Assembly: GCA_025056375.1 (NCBI GenBank)
Contig: JANWWH010000005.1
Coordinates: 1-46,112 of the forward strand
Direction: 5' to 3'
Origin: Aquificaceae bacterium
Lineage (GTDB): Bacteria; Aquificota; Aquificia; Aquificales; Aquificaceae
DNA length: 46,112 nt
This document shows positions 400 to 9,454 of the stretch, piece by piece; positions within the stretch are counted from its first letter, which is position 1; each line of letters begins with the position of its first letter. The position numbers and the translations under genes are program-made. The notes beneath the pieces are model-generated. The model had not been told where the DNA came from, did not search any database, and saw only the letters and a program-made list of their open reading frames with translations.

Positions 400-913
400 A
401 ACGCCAAACCTCCTGTCCCTGTCAAGACTACTCCTTAGCCCAATGTTGCTCTTCTTGCAAGAGGAGCTCTTAGCCTTATTCTTTCTTACTCTTGCCCTTT
501 CGGACGCGTTCGATGGTTTTCTTGCGAGGAAGTTAAAGGCTCAAACGGAGCTGGGCAAGGTCCTTGACCCACTGGCGGATAAGGTCATGCTCCTCTGCGG
601 GCTTTTCCTATGCGTATACAAACTTAGGGGCTTGCCCGAATGGCTCTTCTACCTTTCTCTTTTGAGAGACCTATTCCTACTGTTTGGGGCTACGCTCCTT
701 ACCCTGAAGGGTAGGGGAGTTCCTTCTGCAAGGCTCGTAGGAAAGGCTCACACCTTCTTTCTCTCCCTTCTCCTTTTCCTGTGCATGCTCGGGCTTCCTG
801 TGGAGGGGCTTTCCTTTCTTGCCCTCATGCTCCTTATAGCTTCTTGGTTTGATTATCTCTCCGTGGGTTTGAAGAAGTTCAGAAATCAAACTTCTTCCTT
901 ATCCTTATCCTGA
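377..913 (+). CDS. pgsA: CDP-diacylglycerol-glycerol-3-phosphate 3-phosphatidyltransferase
   Basis: Integral membrane enzyme of 178 residues that makes phosphatidylglycerol phosphate from CDP-diacylglycerol and glycerol 3-phosphate. The CDP-alcohol phosphatidyltransferase signature is complete: D43, D46-G47, A50-R51, G60, D64 and D68. Hydrophobic helices surround it, and the length is typical of PgsA. It starts inside the end of lnt (23-base overlap), so it is probably translationally coupled. It converges on the tamB-like gene, sharing 35 bases of 3' coding sequence. The phosphatase for the next step (PgpA) is also in this window near 41 kb. Another CDP-alcohol transferase such as PssA cannot be excluded, but the length and N-terminus fit PgsA best. 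Confidence 0.88.
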   Translation: MRSDLYLKTPNLLSLSRLLLSPMLLFLQEELLALFFLTLALSDAFDGFLARKLKAQTELGKVLDPLADKVMLLCGLFLCVYKLRGLPEWLFYLSLLRDLFLLFGATLLTLKGRGVPSARLVGKAHTFFLSLLLFLCMLGLPVEGLSFLALMLLIASWFDYLSVGLKKFRNQTSSLSLS

Positions 914-3900
914 CCTCTTGTGTTTTATCGGAGTAAAGCTTTCCTCCTATGGAGGTGTTTGGTGTGAGCTTCGCTTCTCCTGCGGTGTAGGTTTCTTTTG
1001 GGTCTTTCAGCGTGCTCTGTCTGTGTTCCACCGAGAGCCTATCAGTTATCTCTTTGGATATGGAGGCACTTATGCCCACCTCGCCGGTCGTGGACATAGA
1101 AGGGTAAACCTGAACCTTTACATCAAGCCCCGTCACGCCCTTTGCACCTTTTATAAAACCGCTCAACTGAGGGACCTGGCTTATGAGGGCACCACCTATG
1201 GGTATCAACCCCTCTCCTTCTTCACTGCCTAACACAAGGGCGGTAAGAACCTCCCTGCTGTCTCTGGGTGGCTCTGACCTAACTATAACCTTTGGATACT
1301 GAGGGTGTCCCTTCAGGTCAAGGATTATAGTGTAGTCGGGCGTTGGCGTGGTCAGGCTAAGTTCCAGTTCGCTCTCCTTTCGGGTGAGGTTTACCTCACC
1401 CTTCCTTACGAAGAAGTCTCTCTCAAAGTAGCTCAGTTTTCCACCCTTGAGATACGCATTCACCCTATAGTCTGGCTCGTAGAGGGTGCCCTTTATGCTC
1501 GCAGAGAGGTCCGCATACAAGAAACCTTCAGGAAGGTTTATCCTTAGTGGTTCTGAAGAGTTAAAAGAAAGGTCAAGGCTAACCCTCTTGTATTCCTCTG
1601 GTGGAGGGCTCTTTTTCCTTGACCATCTCTGAAGGTTTACAAGCCCGGAGGTGTAGAAAGTTCCACCTATGTTCAGGCTCCCGTGGTTGTAGCTTACGCT
1701 CCCCTTACCGGATAGAAAAAGGCTTGTCCTTATGTCCTCTCCTCTGTAGAGCACAGGAAGCTGTGACATTTCAAAGCTAATCTTGGCGGAGTTTTCCTTG
1801 CCAGTTAGCTGAGCAAGGAGTGAAGCTCTCTGGTTACCCTGAAGCTGGAAGCGGCCCTGAAAGCCTTCTTCCTTGAGGTTCAGCTCAAGGTTTCCCTGAA
1901 GGGGCATAGCAAGATATCTGGACCTTAGGATGACCTTCTCTGACCTTGCCAGAAGGAGAAAGTCTTCACCTCCGTAAGAAAGGCGGTAAGAAACCTTACC
2001 CTCCGCATCCGCCAACAACCTACTCCTCAGGAGGGCGGAGAGCTTCCCCAGGTCCAGATATCCCTCCGAGGAAAAGTTCAAGCCCTTTAGATAGTGCACC
2101 ACCACAGGACCCTCCGCCACGCCTGAAAGCCTACCCTTTAGACCCAAGCTCCCGTCCTTGTAACTTCCTTTTTCAAAGTCCAGCCTTCCGAGCACCTCTT
2201 GACCGAGCATAAGAGACACGGGCTTCACCTCTATGCTCCCCTCTCCTCTACTTCCGTAGAGCCTCGCACCCTCCACCCTCAGGCTCCACAGCCCATCCTT
2301 AAGGGTAAAACCCTCAAGAGCACCCTCCATCCTGTCTCCCTTTGCTTCAAGATAGGCTCTAATGGGGAAGGAAAAACCCTTGTAACCGCCCGTCCCTGCC
2401 AGCGAAAGCCTGAAGCCTTCACCCATACCCCTTAGGCTGTAAGAGGAAGTAAGGCTAAAATCCCCTAAACTTTCCCTTAGAGAACCCTGAACTTGGTAGC
2501 TACCCTCTTTAAACCTATAGCCCCCTTCTCCCTTTAGGTGTTCTCCGAAGTTAAAGGAAGCATGCAGAGCTTCCTCGTCCAGCCTACCTTCAAAACGACC
2601 CTCTTTGTAAGAAAAACCCATAAACCCCGTCTCCCCAAGATTGCCCTCAAAGGAGCCTGACCATCCCCTTTCCCCTCTCAGAAGTTCGAAGCCTACGCCT
2701 ACCCTTGAGGAAAACCCCCTTCCTGAAAAAGAACAGTAAAGGCTTCCTGCGGTAGAAACCTTGTCCTTTTTTATGCTTAGACCCGCACTGCCATATAGAG
2801 AGTTTACCTCCACGCCCCTGTAGGAGAAGTTTATGCCCTCCAGCCTGAGCCCTCCGGAGAAGCTCTCCTCTCTTATGGAGCCTTGCCCCTCCAGAGAAAA
2901 ACCTTCACCCACCATCCTCAGCGCATAGACATCGCCCTCAAGGTTAAGGGTGTAGTCCGCAGAACCAAGGGACAGGTCTCTGTAGGTTATACCACCTAAC
3001 TTCCCTGCGCCCTTGAGGTAAAGGCGTCCTTCTCGAAGAGCAAGAAGCCCCTTGTAATAGAGCTGGAAGGCGGTATCTCCCCTCTTCACACTGTAGCCCA
3101 GCAGGGTTGCATCGCCAACGAGGTTGCTTCCTAAGAAACTCCCTCTGTAGTCAAGCTGGAAGGGTTGAAGGGAGGAAAACTCAAAGCTACCCCTTGGTAT
3201 GTCTCTGTAGTGAAGCCAAAGCCTTAGCTCCACTCCGCCGAGACTGTGTTGGTCAAATTCCATAAAGGGTGCATGAGCCCGAAGTTTGAGGAAGCCCTCC
3301 CTTACATCAACGCTGAGTTCACCGTTTACCATACCAAGAACCTTCCTCCTCAGAGAAAGGAGTTTCTCATCCACCAAAAAACGGGAAAAACGACCCCTAA
3401 GAAGCCCCTCCTTGAGAGAATAGTCAAGCTCCAGAAGGGCGGAGGAGTCTATTAGGCTGGCTTTTATCCGATTTTTTCCCCTCCACTCCCAGAGGTATTC
3501 ACCTTCCACCCGCAAAGCTCTGTAGCTCTTTCTCTCTTTCAGTTCAATGTCCGCACTCCCTTCAAAGGAAGCCCTTAGCTTTCTGTAGTTCAGGCTTCCC
3601 CTGAAACTTAAGGGCATATCTCCAAGACGAAAGTGTCTTCCTTCCAAAGGAAGGACCCTTCCCCAAGCTTCAAAGCTACCCTCCTTGCCCTTCCAAGAAG
3701 CCTTCAGCTGAAAATGGTAGAGCTTGCTCTTTACCTCCGCTCCCTTTACGAGAAGTTCACCACCAACCGCACGAACATCCTTCGGGAGGACCTCAAGATG
3801 GTGTAGGTTCTGTCCCCGCATCCAGTAAGCCTCCGTCCAACCCTCTGAGCGGACCCTACCAGCCCTCAGCTCCGTCTTTGGTATGAAGAGGGTAAGGCTT

Positions 3901-4274
3901 TCACTGTGAGGTATGTAGTTTAGGGATATGTAAAGTTTATCCACGCGGAGGTTGAGCCTCTCTGCAAGTCTTGTAAGGTTTGTAAAGTCGTAGTGAAAGG
4001 GTTTGTCAGAGGGCGGTGCCTTAGAGACCTCTATGAGGTTGAACTCCTCTACCTGAAAGCGCCAGGGTTGAAGGGAAACCCTTTTCAGAAAAAGGTGGAG
4101 GGTTATGTGTCCTATGGGGGCATGGAGGAAAAAGCTATCAAAGCCTATACCTTCCTTCAGGCTCACGCTGAGACCCTTTAGGTCCCACTCTACCCTGCGT
4201 GCAAGCAAGTAGGGCTTAAGTAGGAGGAAGTAAAAGGTCAGGAAGAGAAGGAGGATGTAGCCAACCGCACGCAT
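879..4274 (-). CDS. tamB: TamB/DUF490-type AsmA-like envelope protein
   Basis: A protein of 1131 residues: one N-terminal membrane anchor (residues about 4-25), then about 1000 residues of beta-strand-rich sequence heavy in Gly/Ser/Leu and alternating charge, and a C-terminal DUF490/TamB domain ending in an aromatic-terminated strand (last residue Phe). TamB-like proteins form long hydrophobic grooves across the periplasm and are linked to phospholipid transport to, or protein assembly in, the outer membrane. I chose ATG 4274 because the frame upstream (to 4361) crosses the divergent plsY start and has no hydrophobic anchor at its own N-terminus. A TATAAT on this strand (4292-4287) lies 12 bases before this ATG. 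No bamA/tamA homologue is visible nearby. Confidence 0.82.
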   Translation of the reverse strand: MRAVGYILLLFLTFYFLLLKPYLLARRVEWDLKGLSVSLKEGIGFDSFFLHAPIGHITLHLFLKRVSLQPWRFQVEEFNLIEVSKAPPSDKPFHYDFTNLTRLAERLNLRVDKLYISLNYIPHSESLTLFIPKTELRAGRVRSEGWTEAYWMRGQNLHHLEVLPKDVRAVGGELLVKGAEVKSKLYHFQLKASWKGKEGSFEAWGRVLPLEGRHFRLGDMPLSFRGSLNYRKLRASFEGSADIELKERKSYRALRVEGEYLWEWRGKNRIKASLIDSSALLELDYSLKEGLLRGRFSRFLVDEKLLSLRRKVLGMVNGELSVDVREGFLKLRAHAPFMEFDQHSLGGVELRLWLHYRDIPRGSFEFSSLQPFQLDYRGSFLGSNLVGDATLLGYSVKRGDTAFQLYYKGLLALREGRLYLKGAGKLGGITYRDLSLGSADYTLNLEGDVYALRMVGEGFSLEGQGSIREESFSGGLRLEGINFSYRGVEVNSLYGSAGLSIKKDKVSTAGSLYCSFSGRGFSSRVGVGFELLRGERGWSGSFEGNLGETGFMGFSYKEGRFEGRLDEEALHASFNFGEHLKGEGGYRFKEGSYQVQGSLRESLGDFSLTSSYSLRGMGEGFRLSLAGTGGYKGFSFPIRAYLEAKGDRMEGALEGFTLKDGLWSLRVEGARLYGSRGEGSIEVKPVSLMLGQEVLGRLDFEKGSYKDGSLGLKGRLSGVAEGPVVVHYLKGLNFSSEGYLDLGKLSALLRSRLLADAEGKVSYRLSYGGEDFLLLARSEKVILRSRYLAMPLQGNLELNLKEEGFQGRFQLQGNQRASLLAQLTGKENSAKISFEMSQLPVLYRGEDIRTSLFLSGKGSVSYNHGSLNIGGTFYTSGLVNLQRWSRKKSPPPEEYKRVSLDLSFNSSEPLRINLPEGFLYADLSASIKGTLYEPDYRVNAYLKGGKLSYFERDFFVRKGEVNLTRKESELELSLTTPTPDYTIILDLKGHPQYPKVIVRSEPPRDSREVLTALVLGSEEGEGLIPIGGALISQVPQLSGFIKGAKGVTGLDVKVQVYPSMSTTGEVGISASISKEITDRLSVEHRQSTLKDPKETYTAGEAKLTPNTSIGGKLYSDKTQEVRIRIRKKFDF

Positions 4275-4298
4275 GGCTTCTGAGTTATTATAATTGCC
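4275..4298. promoter_or_regulatory. Divergent tamB / plsY promoter region (24 bp)
   Basis: Only 24 bases separate the two divergent start codons, and they contain an AT core read as TATAAT on both strands (4289-4294 forward, 4292-4287 reverse). The forward hexamer ends 4 bases before the plsY ATG and the reverse one 12 bases before the tamB ATG. There is no room for a Shine-Dalgarno site on the plsY side, so plsY mRNA is predicted to be leaderless. Any -35 boxes must lie inside the opposite gene. Confidence 0.6.
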
Positions 4299-4883
4299 AT
4301 GGACAGCCTGCTGCTTATCCTCTTTGCATACCTTTACGGTTCTCTGCTTTTTGGAGAGCATGTGGCGAGGTGGAAGGGGGTGGACATAAGGTCTGTAGGG
4401 AGTGGAAATGTGGGTGCCACAAATGTAGGCAGGGTGCTGGGGAAAAAGTATGCCTTTGTAGTGTTTCTTCTGGACTTTTCAAAGGGTCTTGTTCCTATGC
4501 TTCTTGCGAGGCTTTACTTCGGGCTTGATAGCTGGACAACCTTCTTTGTGGGGCTTGCGAGCCTTTTAGGACACATGTATCCCTTCTTTCACGGCTTTAA
4601 GGGTGGTAAGGGTGTGGCTACCGCCTTTGGCACTCTCACCGCCCTCTCCCCTCTTACCGCCTTTCTTTCCATTACCCTATGGGGTTTCCTCTTCAGGTGG
4701 AAGGGTATAGTGTCTATCGCCTCTCTTGGTGCTTCAGCCTTTGCGGTAGTGTTCCTGCTCCTTTCTGGGTATCCCTTCAGGATGTTTCTTATGGGTATTT
4801 TCATGTTCCTCCTCATACTCTACAGGCACAGGGACAACATAAGGAGGCTTATGGAAGGAAGAGAGCTCACCTTTAGGGCATGA
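4299..4883 (+). CDS. plsY: Glycerol-3-phosphate acyltransferase PlsY
   Basis: Polytopic inner-membrane enzyme of 194 residues that uses acyl-phosphate to acylate position 1 of glycerol 3-phosphate, the first step of phospholipid synthesis. The three family motifs are visible: the SVGSGNVGATNVGR segment (residues about 32-45), the GHMYPFFHGFKGGKGVAT segment in the middle, and a C-terminal RHRDNIRRL region. Length is normal. A TATAAT 4 bases before the ATG suggests a leaderless message. It overlaps the next gene by ATGA, so the glycosyltransferase is probably co-translated. The assignment is secure. Confidence 0.96.
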   Translation: MDSLLLILFAYLYGSLLFGEHVARWKGVDIRSVGSGNVGATNVGRVLGKKYAFVVFLLDFSKGLVPMLLARLYFGLDSWTTFFVGLASLLGHMYPFFHGFKGGKGVATAFGTLTALSPLTAFLSITLWGFLFRWKGIVSIASLGASAFAVVFLLLSGYPFRMFLMGIFMFLLILYRHRDNIRRLMEGRELTFRA

Positions 4884-6298
4884 TTTACGTCCTCTCTTTC
4901 AACCTTTTACTTCTCTTTTTCAGGCTCTTATACTTGCTTCTTTACCCCCTTGACCTCACGCCAGAGGAAGCCCAGTATTGGGACTGGTCAAGACATCTGG
5001 ACCTAAGCTATTACTCAAAACCGCCTCTGGTCGCTTATACAAACTTCCTTACCGGAAAGCTTTTCGGCGTCTCCGAGATTGGGGTAAGGATAACGCCCAT
5101 ACTCCTCTCTTTCCTCCTTTCGATGCTCACCTACCTCTTTATGAGGCACCTCTTTGACCACCGCTCCGCCATGATAGCTTCCACGCTACCCCAGCTCACC
5201 GTAGGCTTTAGCATGAATTCCCTACTTATGACCACTGACGCCCTCTTAGTGTTCTTCTGGTCTCTGGCAGTTATGGTGCTTTTCTTCGCCTTTGAAAAGA
5301 ATTCTCTATACCTATGGCTCCTCGCTGGGTTTCTGGCAGGGCTTGCCTTCCTGAGCAAGTATCCTGCGGTTTTCTTACTACCCTGCGCACTGCTCTTTGC
5401 CCTTTTCTACCGTAGGGGTTTGCTGAAGAGCTACAAACCCTATCTCAGCCTTCTGCCCGCCCTACTTTTGAGCCTTCCCGTCCTTTACTGGAACTACAAA
5501 CGGGATTTTGTCTCCTTTAAGCACGTTTCCACCCTTGCCAGCAAGTCTTCAGAAGTTTTAAACCTTCAGAGCTTTCTCGAGTTTCTTGGAGGTCAGCTCC
5601 TTCTCCTTTCAGTGCTTCCCTTCCTTCTTTTACCCCTTGCTTGGTGGAGGGGTTTGGGGGCGTCTAAGACTGGCTTTTTCGTGCTCTTTTCTCTTCCAGT
5701 TTTTCTCTTCTTTGCCCTACTTTCCACTTTCAAGAGGGTGGAAGCCAACTGGCCAGGCTTTGGCTACTTCACCGCCTTCCTGCTCCTTAGCTTACAACTC
5801 TCAAAGAGCAAGCTACTCCTCCCCACTTACCTTCTTGCTCTTTTCCTGTTTCTCTTTCTACACTTTACGCCCCTCCTCGACCTTTTGGGTTTGGGTGGTC
5901 TTGTCCCGCCCAAGAGAGACCCTACAAAGGTAGGCGTTGGCTGGTCCCAGCTCGGTGTTGTAGTAAGCCAGATGAGGAAAGGTGAGGAAAAGATAATAAC
6001 ACCTCATTACCAGATAAGCGCGGAGCTTGCCTTCTACGTGAAGGGTAACCCAAGAACCTACTGCATAAACTTGGGTAGGCGGATGAACCAATACGACCTC
6101 TGGAAAAAAGACTATGAGGGAGACGCCCTCTTCGTAGACTACAGACCCATAGACCCTAAGGTGCTCTCTGCCAGTGATGGTATAATAGAAAGTAGGGAAT
6201 TCTCCGTTATATGGAGAGGGCAGGAAGTTAAGAGGTTTTACATATATAGGCTAAAAAATTTAAGAAAGGTGGAGGAGAAGATGCCTGAGAGTTATTAG
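4880..6298 (+). CDS. GT39/ArnT-like membrane glycosyltransferase
   Basis: A 472-residue polytopic protein of the PMT_2 / ArnT-like superfamily, which transfer sugars from polyprenyl-phosphate carriers to lipids or proteins on the outer face of the inner membrane. The N-terminal loop has the family acidic motif (DLTPEEAQYWDW, residues about 24-35) and a downstream YYSKPPLVAY segment, followed by about ten hydrophobic helices and a C-terminal soluble part of about 110 residues (from about residue 360). It starts in an ATGA overlap with plsY. The substrate cannot be read from sequence: lipid A, a glycolipid or a protein are all possible. The 3' end overlaps the next gene by 14 bases. Confidence 0.8.
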   Translation: MIYVLSFNLLLLFFRLLYLLLYPLDLTPEEAQYWDWSRHLDLSYYSKPPLVAYTNFLTGKLFGVSEIGVRITPILLSFLLSMLTYLFMRHLFDHRSAMIASTLPQLTVGFSMNSLLMTTDALLVFFWSLAVMVLFFAFEKNSLYLWLLAGFLAGLAFLSKYPAVFLLPCALLFALFYRRGLLKSYKPYLSLLPALLLSLPVLYWNYKRDFVSFKHVSTLASKSSEVLNLQSFLEFLGGQLLLLSVLPFLLLPLAWWRGLGASKTGFFVLFSLPVFLFFALLSTFKRVEANWPGFGYFTAFLLLSLQLSKSKLLLPTYLLALFLFLFLHFTPLLDLLGLGGLVPPKRDPTKVGVGWSQLGVVVSQMRKGEEKIITPHYQISAELAFYVKGNPRTYCINLGRRMNQYDLWKKDYEGDALFVDYRPIDPKVLSASDGIIESREFSVIWRGQEVKRFYIYRLKNLRKVEEKMPESY

Positions 6299-7094
6299 AC
6301 CCCTCCTGAGCCTATACCTTGCAGGTTTTTTCCTTTACCACTCTCTGCCTTTTGTATTTCTTGAACACATCCACTACTCTATACCTACCCCAGCCCCACT
6401 ACCCTTTCAGAAACAGTGTGCTTACGTCATTAACCCCAAAACGGTTTACAACAGCCCTCTGGGAAACCCCAAAAAACTAAAAAAGGAGCTGGATAGCAGA
6501 GGTCTTCTACTTTATGAGGGTTCGGAGGAGTCTCTTGGTTACAGAGACATAAGCCTGAGCCTTTGGCTCGCCTACTTCCTTTTTGAGTTTGTGCCCAAGA
6601 GCTTCCTTCTGAAAGAGCCGGAGGACCCCTACAGCCTCTTGCACAACCACCGCTGTCTGCCCCTTGCTTCGGACATGCCCATAGTCCTTTCTCTCTGGAA
6701 CTTTGACTTTCCAAGCTACCGCTTTATACTGGGCAAGAGGAAAAACCTTTTCTACGGTGAGAGTTGTGAAACTCCAGAGGCTTCCCAGTTCCTTCCCTTT
6801 CTTGGCTCTGGGAGGCTTCAGGTCTACGCATACTCGAACAGAGGTTTTCACTTCCCTGGTAATAGCCTTAGAGTTCCTGCGGTGTTATCGGTGGACCTCT
6901 TTGAAAAAAGGGTTTTGGTGTTCCTCTGGAAGGAGGACAGACCCTACAAGGTCTTTGACAGGAGAACCATAAGAGAGAGACTTACAGAAGCCGGAAGCTA
7001 TCGCCTTCAGGCTTACACTTACAGATACAAGCTTTGGAAGTTTTATTTCGGTCTTCGCTCTCTTTTCTGCTCGCCCCCTCTTCAAGCCATGTAA
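6285..7094 (+). CDS. Unknown membrane-anchored protein, probable CTG start
   Basis: I do not recognise this 269-residue protein. An open frame runs from a stop at 6261 to 7094 with coding-like codon use throughout. It begins with a signal-anchor-like stretch (RVIRPLLSLYLAGFFLYHS), then a proline-rich segment and several aromatic-rich strands. The first ATG/GTG/TTG in frame is GTG 6591, which would remove the anchor and 102 residues. A strong GGAGGAG (6271-6277) sits 7 bases before CTG 6285, so I place the start there. The ATG at 6281 is in the frame of the previous gene and reaches a stop after five codons. The C-terminus (GSYRLQAYTYRY, then SPPL) loosely resembles the end of some extracytoplasmic beta domains; that is inference only. 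It follows the glycosyltransferase and may act with it. Confidence 0.6.
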   Translation: MRVIRPLLSLYLAGFFLYHSLPFVFLEHIHYSIPTPAPLPFQKQCAYVINPKTVYNSPLGNPKKLKKELDSRGLLLYEGSEESLGYRDISLSLWLAYFLFEFVPKSFLLKEPEDPYSLLHNHRCLPLASDMPIVLSLWNFDFPSYRFILGKRKNLFYGESCETPEASQFLPFLGSGRLQVYAYSNRGFHFPGNSLRVPAVLSVDLFEKRVLVFLWKEDRPYKVFDRRTIRERLTEAGSYRLQAYTYRYKLWKFYFGLRSLFCSPPLQAM

Positions 7095-9454
7095 GAGAGG
7101 TCCATCCTCTTTTGGTAACGGCGGAGAAGAAGACTTTTTAGGTCCGTATACCTTTCAAGGTGGGGGTCCTCTTTCAGGAGCTCTACTGCGTCTTCTCTCG
7201 CCATCTGTAGAAAAGCCCTGTCCTGCGCCCTTGCCAGGTTTGCCACCCAAAAACCAAAGTAGCCTGACTGGGACTCACCCAACAGCTCCCCAGGACCTCT
7301 CAACCTCATGTCCTCCTCCGCTATCTCAAAGCCGTCGTTGGACCTCACCAGCACCTTGAGCCTTTTGAGAGCCTCCCTATCATTCTTTAACTCCTCAGGA
7401 ACCACAAGGTAGCAGTAGCTCTGCAGGTCTGACCTTCCTACCCTTCCCCTGAGCTGATGAAGCTGAGAGAGACCAAAGCGGTGGGCGGACTCCACCACCA
7501 TGAGGGTAGCATCGGGCACATCCACGCCCACTTCCACCACCGTGGTGGAGACCAGCACGTCCCCCTCCCTTTTAAATTTTTCCATTACCTCCCTCTTTTC
7601 TTCCTCCCTTAGCTTGCCGTGGAGCAGGAGCACCTTTCTTTCTGGTAGGAGCTTCGTCCAGCGAGCGTGTTCCTGCACTGCGGACTTGAGCTGAAGCTTC
7701 TCAGATTCCTCTATAAGGGGGTATATCACATAGACCTTGTTACCTTTAGACAGCTCCTCTTTAACCGCCTTCATAACTTTCTCAAACTCGGGCTCAAAAA
7801 CCAGCCTGGTTATCACCGGCTTCCTACCCTTTGGCATCTGGTCTATAACCGAAAGGTCAAGGTCGCCGTAAAGGGAGAGGGCGAGGGTTCTGGGTATGGG
7901 TGTGGCGCTCATAACAAGACAGTGAGGGTAGAAACCACCACCCTTTTCCAGAAGGAGCTTTCTCTGCAGGACGCCAAAGCGATGCTGTTCGTCGATGACT
8001 ACGAAGGCAAGCCTGTTGAACTCCACACCCTCTTGTATGAGGGCGTGGGTGCCGAGGAGAACCTGAAGGTTTCCCCGCCGTGCGTGAGAGAGAAGGCTCT
8101 TCCTGAGGCTACCCTTCACCGAGCCCGTCAAGAGACCAACCCTTATCCCGAGGGGTTCGAGAAACCTCTTGAAGCTTTCATAATGCTGTTGAGCTAATAT
8201 CTCAGTAGGCACCATCAGAGCGCTTTGATAACCTTCCTTTGCAAAGGCAAAGGCTACAGCCATAGCCACCACCGTCTTCCCGCTACCTACATCACCTTGT
8301 AAGAGTCTGCTCATGGGTGTGGAAGCCTTCACATCCTGAAGGACCTCCCCTATCACCCTCTCCTGGGCGGGCGTGAGCTGGAAGGGTAGGCTTTTCTTGA
8401 ACTCTTCCACCCAAACCTCTGGATTTTTGAGGCTCACCGCAGGTAAGTTTCTTATCTGTGACCTGATGACCTGCAGGACAAGCTGGAAGAGGAAAAGGTC
8501 TTCGTAAACGAGCCTCTTTTGAAAGGGTGTAGAAAAGCTGTTGAGAGCATCCTCATCCACGTCAAGGGGCTTGTGGACAAGATAGAGGCTTTCCCCTATG
8601 TTTGGTAGGTTTCTCTTTTTGAGAAGGCTCTCCGGCATGTATTCTGGCATGTATTTTGCAAGCTCGGAGAGCTTTGAAAGGGTTTCTCTCAAGAGCTCGT
8701 GTCTCTTTCTGGCGGACACGCTCCTGAGTTCGCCCTCCGTTCTTATGTAGTAGAAGGGTAGGATTTTACCAGCCTCTTCCTTCCTCAGGAATTCGGGATG
8801 AACCATGTACTTTTCTCCGCGGTATTCCCTCAACCTACCGTAGGCTATAACTTCCTGACCCTTCCTGAACCTATAAAGAGCTCTCTGGTCTTTATACTTG
8901 AACCTGAGGAAGAGTTTGCCTGTGCCGTCCTCACACTCCACCCAGGCAGGATACTTTTCCTTTGGGTCGAAGCCCGTCTGAAGAACCTTGAGCCTGAGGG
9001 CTAACTTCTGCCCACCCTTAGCGGTCTTTATGGCACCTAACAGTCTTCTGTCTTCGTACCTCTGGGGAACAAACCAGAGGGCGGAGTAAAGGTCTTCTAT
9101 GCCGAAAGACTTCAGGGCTTTCTTTTCCTTTTCTCCAAGAGACCTCAGCTCCTCCACAGGCTTAAAGAAGGCGCTCAAAGGTTTTTTCTCCACCTTAGAG
9201 AAGTCCACCACCACCCTTTGAACTGGTTCTGAGAGCCTCCTTTCCAACTCCTTAAGAACCGCCTTTCTTTTTTCAAAGGGTAGGTGGTCAAATTCCTTAA
9301 GAAGTTCAAGATAAGAAGGCTCAAGAGAGCCCTTTAGGAGGTTAAAAAGATACAAGCCCGCACCTATGCTCCTCTTGAGCTTAAGGCAGTCCTTATCCAA
9401 AAGCTCAAGTATAAACCTCCTTGCCTTTTCCAGCCGGTCTTCGCCTTCCACCAT
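7082..9454 (-). CDS. recG: ATP-dependent DNA helicase RecG
   Basis: Branch-migration helicase of 790 residues that remodels stalled forks and Holliday junctions. An OB-fold wedge domain lies at about residues 130-240, Walker A GDVGSGKT at about 387-394, a DEQH box (VIDEQHRFG), the SATPIPRT motif and a full C-terminal helicase lobe including the QLRGRVGR motif VI. It is about 100 residues longer than E. coli RecG because of an N-terminal helical extension (residues 1-100), a form known in Aquifex and Thermotoga. The 3' end converges on and overlaps the unknown gene at 6285-7094 by 13 bases. A GATAAT lies 13 bases upstream of the start. The assignment is secure. Confidence 0.96.
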   Translation of the reverse strand: MVEGEDRLEKARRFILELLDKDCLKLKRSIGAGLYLFNLLKGSLEPSYLELLKEFDHLPFEKRKAVLKELERRLSEPVQRVVVDFSKVEKKPLSAFFKPVEELRSLGEKEKKALKSFGIEDLYSALWFVPQRYEDRRLLGAIKTAKGGQKLALRLKVLQTGFDPKEKYPAWVECEDGTGKLFLRFKYKDQRALYRFRKGQEVIAYGRLREYRGEKYMVHPEFLRKEEAGKILPFYYIRTEGELRSVSARKRHELLRETLSKLSELAKYMPEYMPESLLKKRNLPNIGESLYLVHKPLDVDEDALNSFSTPFQKRLVYEDLFLFQLVLQVIRSQIRNLPAVSLKNPEVWVEEFKKSLPFQLTPAQERVIGEVLQDVKASTPMSRLLQGDVGSGKTVVAMAVAFAFAKEGYQSALMVPTEILAQQHYESFKRFLEPLGIRVGLLTGSVKGSLRKSLLSHARRGNLQVLLGTHALIQEGVEFNRLAFVVIDEQHRFGVLQRKLLLEKGGGFYPHCLVMSATPIPRTLALSLYGDLDLSVIDQMPKGRKPVITRLVFEPEFEKVMKAVKEELSKGNKVYVIYPLIEESEKLQLKSAVQEHARWTKLLPERKVLLLHGKLREEEKREVMEKFKREGDVLVSTTVVEVGVDVPDATLMVVESAHRFGLSQLHQLRGRVGRSDLQSYCYLVVPEELKNDREALKRLKVLVRSNDGFEIAEEDMRLRGPGELLGESQSGYFGFWVANLARAQDRAFLQMAREDAVELLKEDPHLERYTDLKSLLLRRYQKRMDLSYMA

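Follow-up and report, generated by a model that had tools for sequence, protein, structure and literature searches.

A conserved overlapping gene pair of the Aquificaceae whose second gene has lost its in-frame ATG: a candidate for reinitiation at an ATTAG stop-start overlap

In termination-reinitiation pairs, co-directed genes overlap at the stop codon of the first gene (ATGA, TGATG), and the Shine-Dalgarno (SD) sequence lies inside the upstream gene. According to PMC10666635, canonical starts seemingly do not allow an overlap of 5 nt, whereas ATT would permit one, the combination ATTAG being named there; the same paper quotes an efficiency for AUU of ~0.3% of that of AUG in Escherichia coli. 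A related arrangement is the SD-directed start-stop correction of E. coli at AUGUGA and GUGUGA sites. In PMC9841429, an SD-directed start, immediate termination and reinitiation at the overlapping start are shown for AUGUGA. PMC12548453 and PMC4833913 discuss short ORFs that supply a downstream gene with ribosomes, and PMC13009471 and PMC13398362 report conserved AUU starts in bacteria. Initiation factor IF3 selects against non-canonical starts, and PMC2268962 discusses a role for it in E. coli reinitiation as well, so that a low efficiency of AUU is to be expected. Programmed +1 frameshifting, as in prfB and yeast Ty3, offers a further means of reaching a second frame; the Ty3 site, GCG_AGU_U, is described in PMC5009743.

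The locus considered here shares features with each of these systems. Like termination-reinitiation pairs, its two genes are co-directed and overlap at a stop codon, with the SD inside the upstream gene, but the overlap would be the 5-nt ATTAG, which canonical starts cannot make, and the SD, 18 nt away from the putative reinitiation codon, would act on an out-of-frame ATG. As in start-stop correction, initiation in the wrong frame would be followed by early termination and by reinitiation in the right frame; in the E. coli case (PMC9841429), the second start is a canonical GUG, whereas the one candidate shared by all species of the present clade is an AUU that follows 3-5 codons later. With the AUU and AUA starts of E. 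coli infC and pcnB, Borrelia pncA and Staphylococcus aureus cvfC1 and ccpN, the locus has in common a conserved AUU, which here would replace a canonical start, yet the S. aureus examples have a close, extended SD, while here the SD is too far away for direct use and the AUU overlaps the upstream stop. The +1 relation between the frames recalls programmed frameshifting, as do, in the genus of the analysed genome, the rare codon at the A site and the stop soon after it, but there is no shift site conserved across genera and the SD spacing differs from that of prfB. The literature searched, to which most subscription papers do not belong, gave no description of this locus or of a conserved ATTAG gene pair.

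The window, i.e. the whole stretch of 46,112 nucleotides that was analysed, carries the pair on its plus strand. The upstream gene (4880-6298, 472 aa) codes for a PMT_2-type glycosyltransferase, for which Pfam family PF13231 gives an E-value of 2.6e-32 and 112.7 bits against a curated cut-off of 26.1, and it ends in ...VEEKMPESY followed by TAG (6296-6298). Compared with the glycosyltransferase frame, the downstream frame is shifted by +1; it is open from 6264 to 7094, the final in-frame stop ahead of it being TAA at 6261-6263. Within the end of the upstream gene lie the SD, GGAGG (6271-6275; GGAGGAG at 6271-6277), and, 5 nt after GGAGG, the ATG at 6281. This ATG is the fifth codon from the end of the glycosyltransferase frame and opens a mini-ORF, ATG CCT GAG AGT TAT TAG (MPESY, 6281-6298). 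A CTG at 6285-6287, 7 bases 3' of GGAGGAG, had been proposed as the start of the downstream gene in an initial annotation. At 6294-6296 an ATT in the downstream frame overlaps the stop (ATTAG, 6294-6298); it is the candidate reinitiation codon and is counted here as codon 0 of the downstream frame. From it the downstream gene would run to 7094 (6294-7094, ~266 aa), and the earliest standard start codon of its frame is the GTG at 6591-6593. The statements of the initial annotation that no ATG, GTG or TTG precedes this GTG in the frame open back to the TAA, that a strong SD stands before the CTG, and that the ATG at 6281 is out of frame and soon terminated are all borne out by the sequence. Among the neighbouring genes, a long minus-strand ORF (879-4361), TamB-like as judged by eye alone, and a plsY-like ORF on the plus strand (4299-4883) share 63 nt in a head-to-head overlap (4299-4361), and a recG-like minus-strand ORF (7082-9454) has 13 nt (7082-7094) in common with the 3' end of the downstream gene, tail to tail.

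The pattern of conservation indicates that the downstream frame is a genuine gene from its first codons. Across the 13 genomes of the window's own genus (g1), the mean identity over residues 0-99, counted from the ATT, is 37-75% per 20-residue block, and third codon positions are the most variable in every such block before the GTG at 6591. Since conserved coding blocks cover residues 0-99, a start at this GTG (residue 99) is disfavoured and the codon is judged to be internal; the start thus lies far upstream, as first annotated, and the N-terminal membrane anchor described at that time is seen as one hydrophobic N-terminal segment, predicted to form a single membrane helix. The protein belongs to no known family: the window protein is without a match in Pfam, where 30 relatives gave only one-member matches at chance level, and the downstream protein found none in NCBIfam or among PDB sequences. 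Its alignment was built from 30 of the 49 genomes in which a match was found. A single-sequence structure model was poor (mean pLDDT 36), with confidence confined to the first ~20 residues, which form a helix. Distant relatives at two loci (L029 and L030), which belong to a different family of the order, match only the C-terminal third of the protein, and the upstream part carries a PHP-like motif, HxHTQFSFDSLG, read by eye; the ancestor of the window protein may have been of PHP type, its metal site having since been lost.

For comparison, 64 genomes of the same family were examined, and all 49 with a match to the downstream protein were tabulated. Four of these rows (L023, L045, L052 and L053) have no upstream glycosyltransferase match, which leaves 45 junctions with the glycosyltransferase directly upstream: 25 from three genera without the start (g1 with 13 rows, g7 and g10), one from a single genome of genus g2, and 19 from two outgroup genera (g6 and g4). 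The 26 rows of g1, g7, g10 and g2 are split from the rest with 100/100 support. A search of the genome contigs for related loci found no relative.

The second gene of this overlapping pair has lost its in-frame ATG in the clade of g1, g7 and g10. An ATG at codon -6 is present in 18 of the 19 outgroup junctions and absent from the 25 junctions of the three genera, 18 of which are entirely devoid of ATG, GTG and TTG from the previous in-frame stop to codon 0; the other seven have a TTG, at -3 in six and at -11 in one. As 18 of the 25 species share this condition, the missing start is neither chance nor a one-off, and the comparison of orthologous starts in close relatives that had been suggested for the window returns the same start-less junction in 25 genomes. 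The g2 genome (n=1) has neither the SD nor the out-of-frame ATG, and has in-frame TTG and GTG codons. Its placement inside as against outside the start-less group was compared on one tree of 34 of the 45 junctions (the 26 derived rows, 4 of 7 from g4 and 4 of 12 from g6), with an AU p of 0.111, so that its reading as a clean reversal within the clade is uncertain. Among the genomes that do not belong to the start-less clade, one of g6 (G069, locus L040) has AAG at codon -6 and its next in-frame ATG at -25, a possible independent loss of the start.

The same recurrence bears on the suggestion that one base of the window is wrong and that removing it would join the ATG at 6281 to the downstream frame. 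A start-less junction common to 25 genomes of three genera, several of them in a single contig, excludes a one-base sequencing error; no support for a sequencing or assembly error was found, and we regard its probability as negligible. The proposed removal would moreover not supply the downstream gene with a start of its own. Because the ATG at 6281 belongs to the glycosyltransferase frame, joining it to the downstream frame would fuse the two ORFs.

What the three genera have in place of the in-frame start is strongly conserved. GGAGG stands exactly 18 nt before the ATT in 25/25 junctions of g1, g7 and g10, and is absent from 19/19 of g6 and g4 and from g2. In the upstream frame, the third base of codon -9 is G in all 25, whichever of V, L, K, R, M or E is encoded there, so that the SD is selected as RNA. 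A pattern search found the complementary anti-SD, CACCTCC, at the 16S 3' end in three of four genomes and missed it in the window's own draft genome. After GGAGG, among the five codons that close the upstream frame, there is an ATG in 24/25 junctions and a GTG in the remaining one, against no ATG and one GTG among the 19 of the outgroup, and from this codon the glycosyltransferase stop is reached within 3-5 codons in all 25. GGAGG and ATG are 5 nt apart in g1 and g10, and 11 nt apart in g7, whose ATG occupies codon -3 and not codon -5; in L019, two GGAGG motifs overlap. The GTG of L009, where one start codon has been changed to another, lies on a terminal branch of length 0.005. The pattern GGAGG-N5-ATG-N9-TATTAGR occurs at most once per genome, in 12 of 37 genomes and always at this locus. 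The in-frame start, on the one hand, and the SD with the out-of-frame start, on the other, thus replace each other. Counted by descent, this replacement may have happened no more than once or twice; the pattern draws its strength from having been retained in 25 species and from the selection on the bases of the SD.

These observations also weigh on plain coupling, whereby only ribosomes terminating on the glycosyltransferase would reinitiate, at the AUU or nearby, with the SD as a tether and the ATG at 6281 as a mere methionine codon, perhaps one simply tolerated in the upstream gene. Such coupling would suit the group, as PMC6728339 gives the Aquificae ~30% of overlapping co-directed gene pairs, the highest of any group. 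It does not, however, account for an out-of-frame ATG or GTG that occurs only where the in-frame ATG is gone (25/25 versus one GTG in 19), that takes another C-terminal position in g7, and that in L009 is exchanged for GTG. We consider plain coupling quite improbable.

The CTG at 6285 fares differently in different species. Codon -3 is CTG in seven and TTG in six of the 25 junctions, all of them 9 nt after the conserved SD, which speaks against the AUU, and CUG or UUG starts are possible in these 13 of the 25 species. In the other 12, however, it is CAG (4), CCA (3) or one each of CCG, CGG, CAA, CGA and TTC, with a further CCG in g2. These 12 are spread over all three genera, and the junction is otherwise the same, so that neither CTG nor an equivalent is conserved among the orthologues. 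In 12 of the 13 g1 rows, codon -3 takes in the wobble base of a proline codon of the upstream frame, which reads CCT in six, CCA in four, and CCC and CCG in one each. With a CCT usage of 0.28 in g1, six or more out of 12 are expected with P = 0.09, no better than proline usage predicts. The CTG thus follows from codon choice in the overlapping gene and is not maintained as a start. As a general start, the initially proposed CTG therefore falls, while in the species that have it, it could still work. Direct initiation at codon -3, by CTG in the window and UUG in some relatives and with other solutions elsewhere, is accordingly an unlikely explanation.

The ATT presents a more uniform picture. 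In a table read by eye, it is the only AUG-like codon found in all 26 derived junctions, that of g2 included; the AGG at -7 is universal too and differs from AUG at its middle base. If the ATT is the start, start and stop overlap in 26/26, as in termination-reinitiation pairs, by ATTAG in all except L002, which has ATTAA, and in the 18 of the 25 junctions without a canonical codon an AUU start would take its place. The ATT is nevertheless also found in 17 of the 19 outgroup genomes as an internal isoleucine codon, and in g6, an outgroup genus with the in-frame ATG, TAT is used in 12/12 (usage 27%), which counts against AUU. A codon conserved where an in-frame ATG exists is not by its conservation alone the mark of a start, and the conservation of ATT was dropped as proof of an AUU start. 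A positive control from the same genomes failed as well. The gene infC is known for its AUU start in E. coli; in these genomes it reads TTG, ATG or GTG (18 of 21 loci, among L073-L097, gave a row).

The 18 nt between GGAGG and ATT are too far for direct SD-led initiation. The sequence GGAGG-N5-ATG would naturally be read as a signal to initiate at the ATG, so that a peptide of only 3 to 5 residues is made before the ribosome terminates at the stop codon of the glycosyltransferase. A possible route to the downstream gene may thus be outlined as follows. Ribosomes completing the glycosyltransferase would terminate at the UAG (6296-6298); GGAGG would recruit further ribosomes to the ATG at 6281, whose five-codon mini-ORF ends at the same UAG; and the terminated ribosomes would reinitiate at the overlapping AUU (6294-6296, AUUAG), giving a protein which would begin M-R-P-L-L-S-L-Y. 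We put forward this reinitiation at AUU, fed by the mini-ORF, as the preferred explanation, although tentatively and with less than even confidence. It leaves unexplained the fixed wobble bases which precede the ATT in g1.

These bases are what makes a +1 frameshift a serious rival, if an unlikely one. Ribosomes that had started at the ATG at 6281, or had translated the whole glycosyltransferase, would shift just before codon -1 (in g1, at GGG AGU U), and the product would be M-P-E/G-V-I-R... or a fusion to the glycosyltransferase. No in-frame start would be needed. At this position in g1, glycine is encoded by GGG in 12/12 (usage 0.14) and serine by AGT in 11/11 (0.26 of AGY), with no such constraint on the proline codon before them; GGG.A permits re-pairing on GGA, and GGG AGU U resembles the site of yeast Ty3. 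The site is not a shared one, however: GGG_AGT is present in 10 of the 13 g1 rows (not in L001, L003 and L011), and the window itself has GAG, g10 has GAA or CAG and g7 has ATG. A dedicated tRNA-Gly(CCC) is present in genome G013, unlike the tRNA shortage behind Ty3, and a frameshift caused by a missing tRNA for GGG is thus unsupported. The differing codons and this cognate tRNA together leave a shared programmed site without support. In prfB, the SD is placed a short distance from the frameshift site; here GGAGG is 11 nt from the GGG. No natural in-frame fusion occurs in the 49 matching genomes, whose open frames reach at most 352 aa.

Whether by reinitiation at AUU or by a shift, the second gene of the clade seems to be reached via the first gene's frame, in which the ribosomes concerned would either initiate or terminate. 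In its fuller form, this reading holds that a conserved gene without a usable start in its own frame would, in three genera or more, be entered through the mini-ORF or the end of the upstream gene, followed by reinitiation at AUU (AUUAG) or by an immediate +1 shift, a wrong-frame start having replaced the right-frame one; we give it nearly, although not quite, an even chance.

The present work thus adds a conserved candidate for a 5-nt stop-start overlap formed with ATT. Gene callers restricted to ATG, GTG and TTG would truncate the downstream protein to the GTG at 6591, yielding 167 aa instead of ~266. The sister genera which keep the ATG, set against the clade that lost it, provide a natural comparison, and the locus would show how a gene survives the loss of its start codon.
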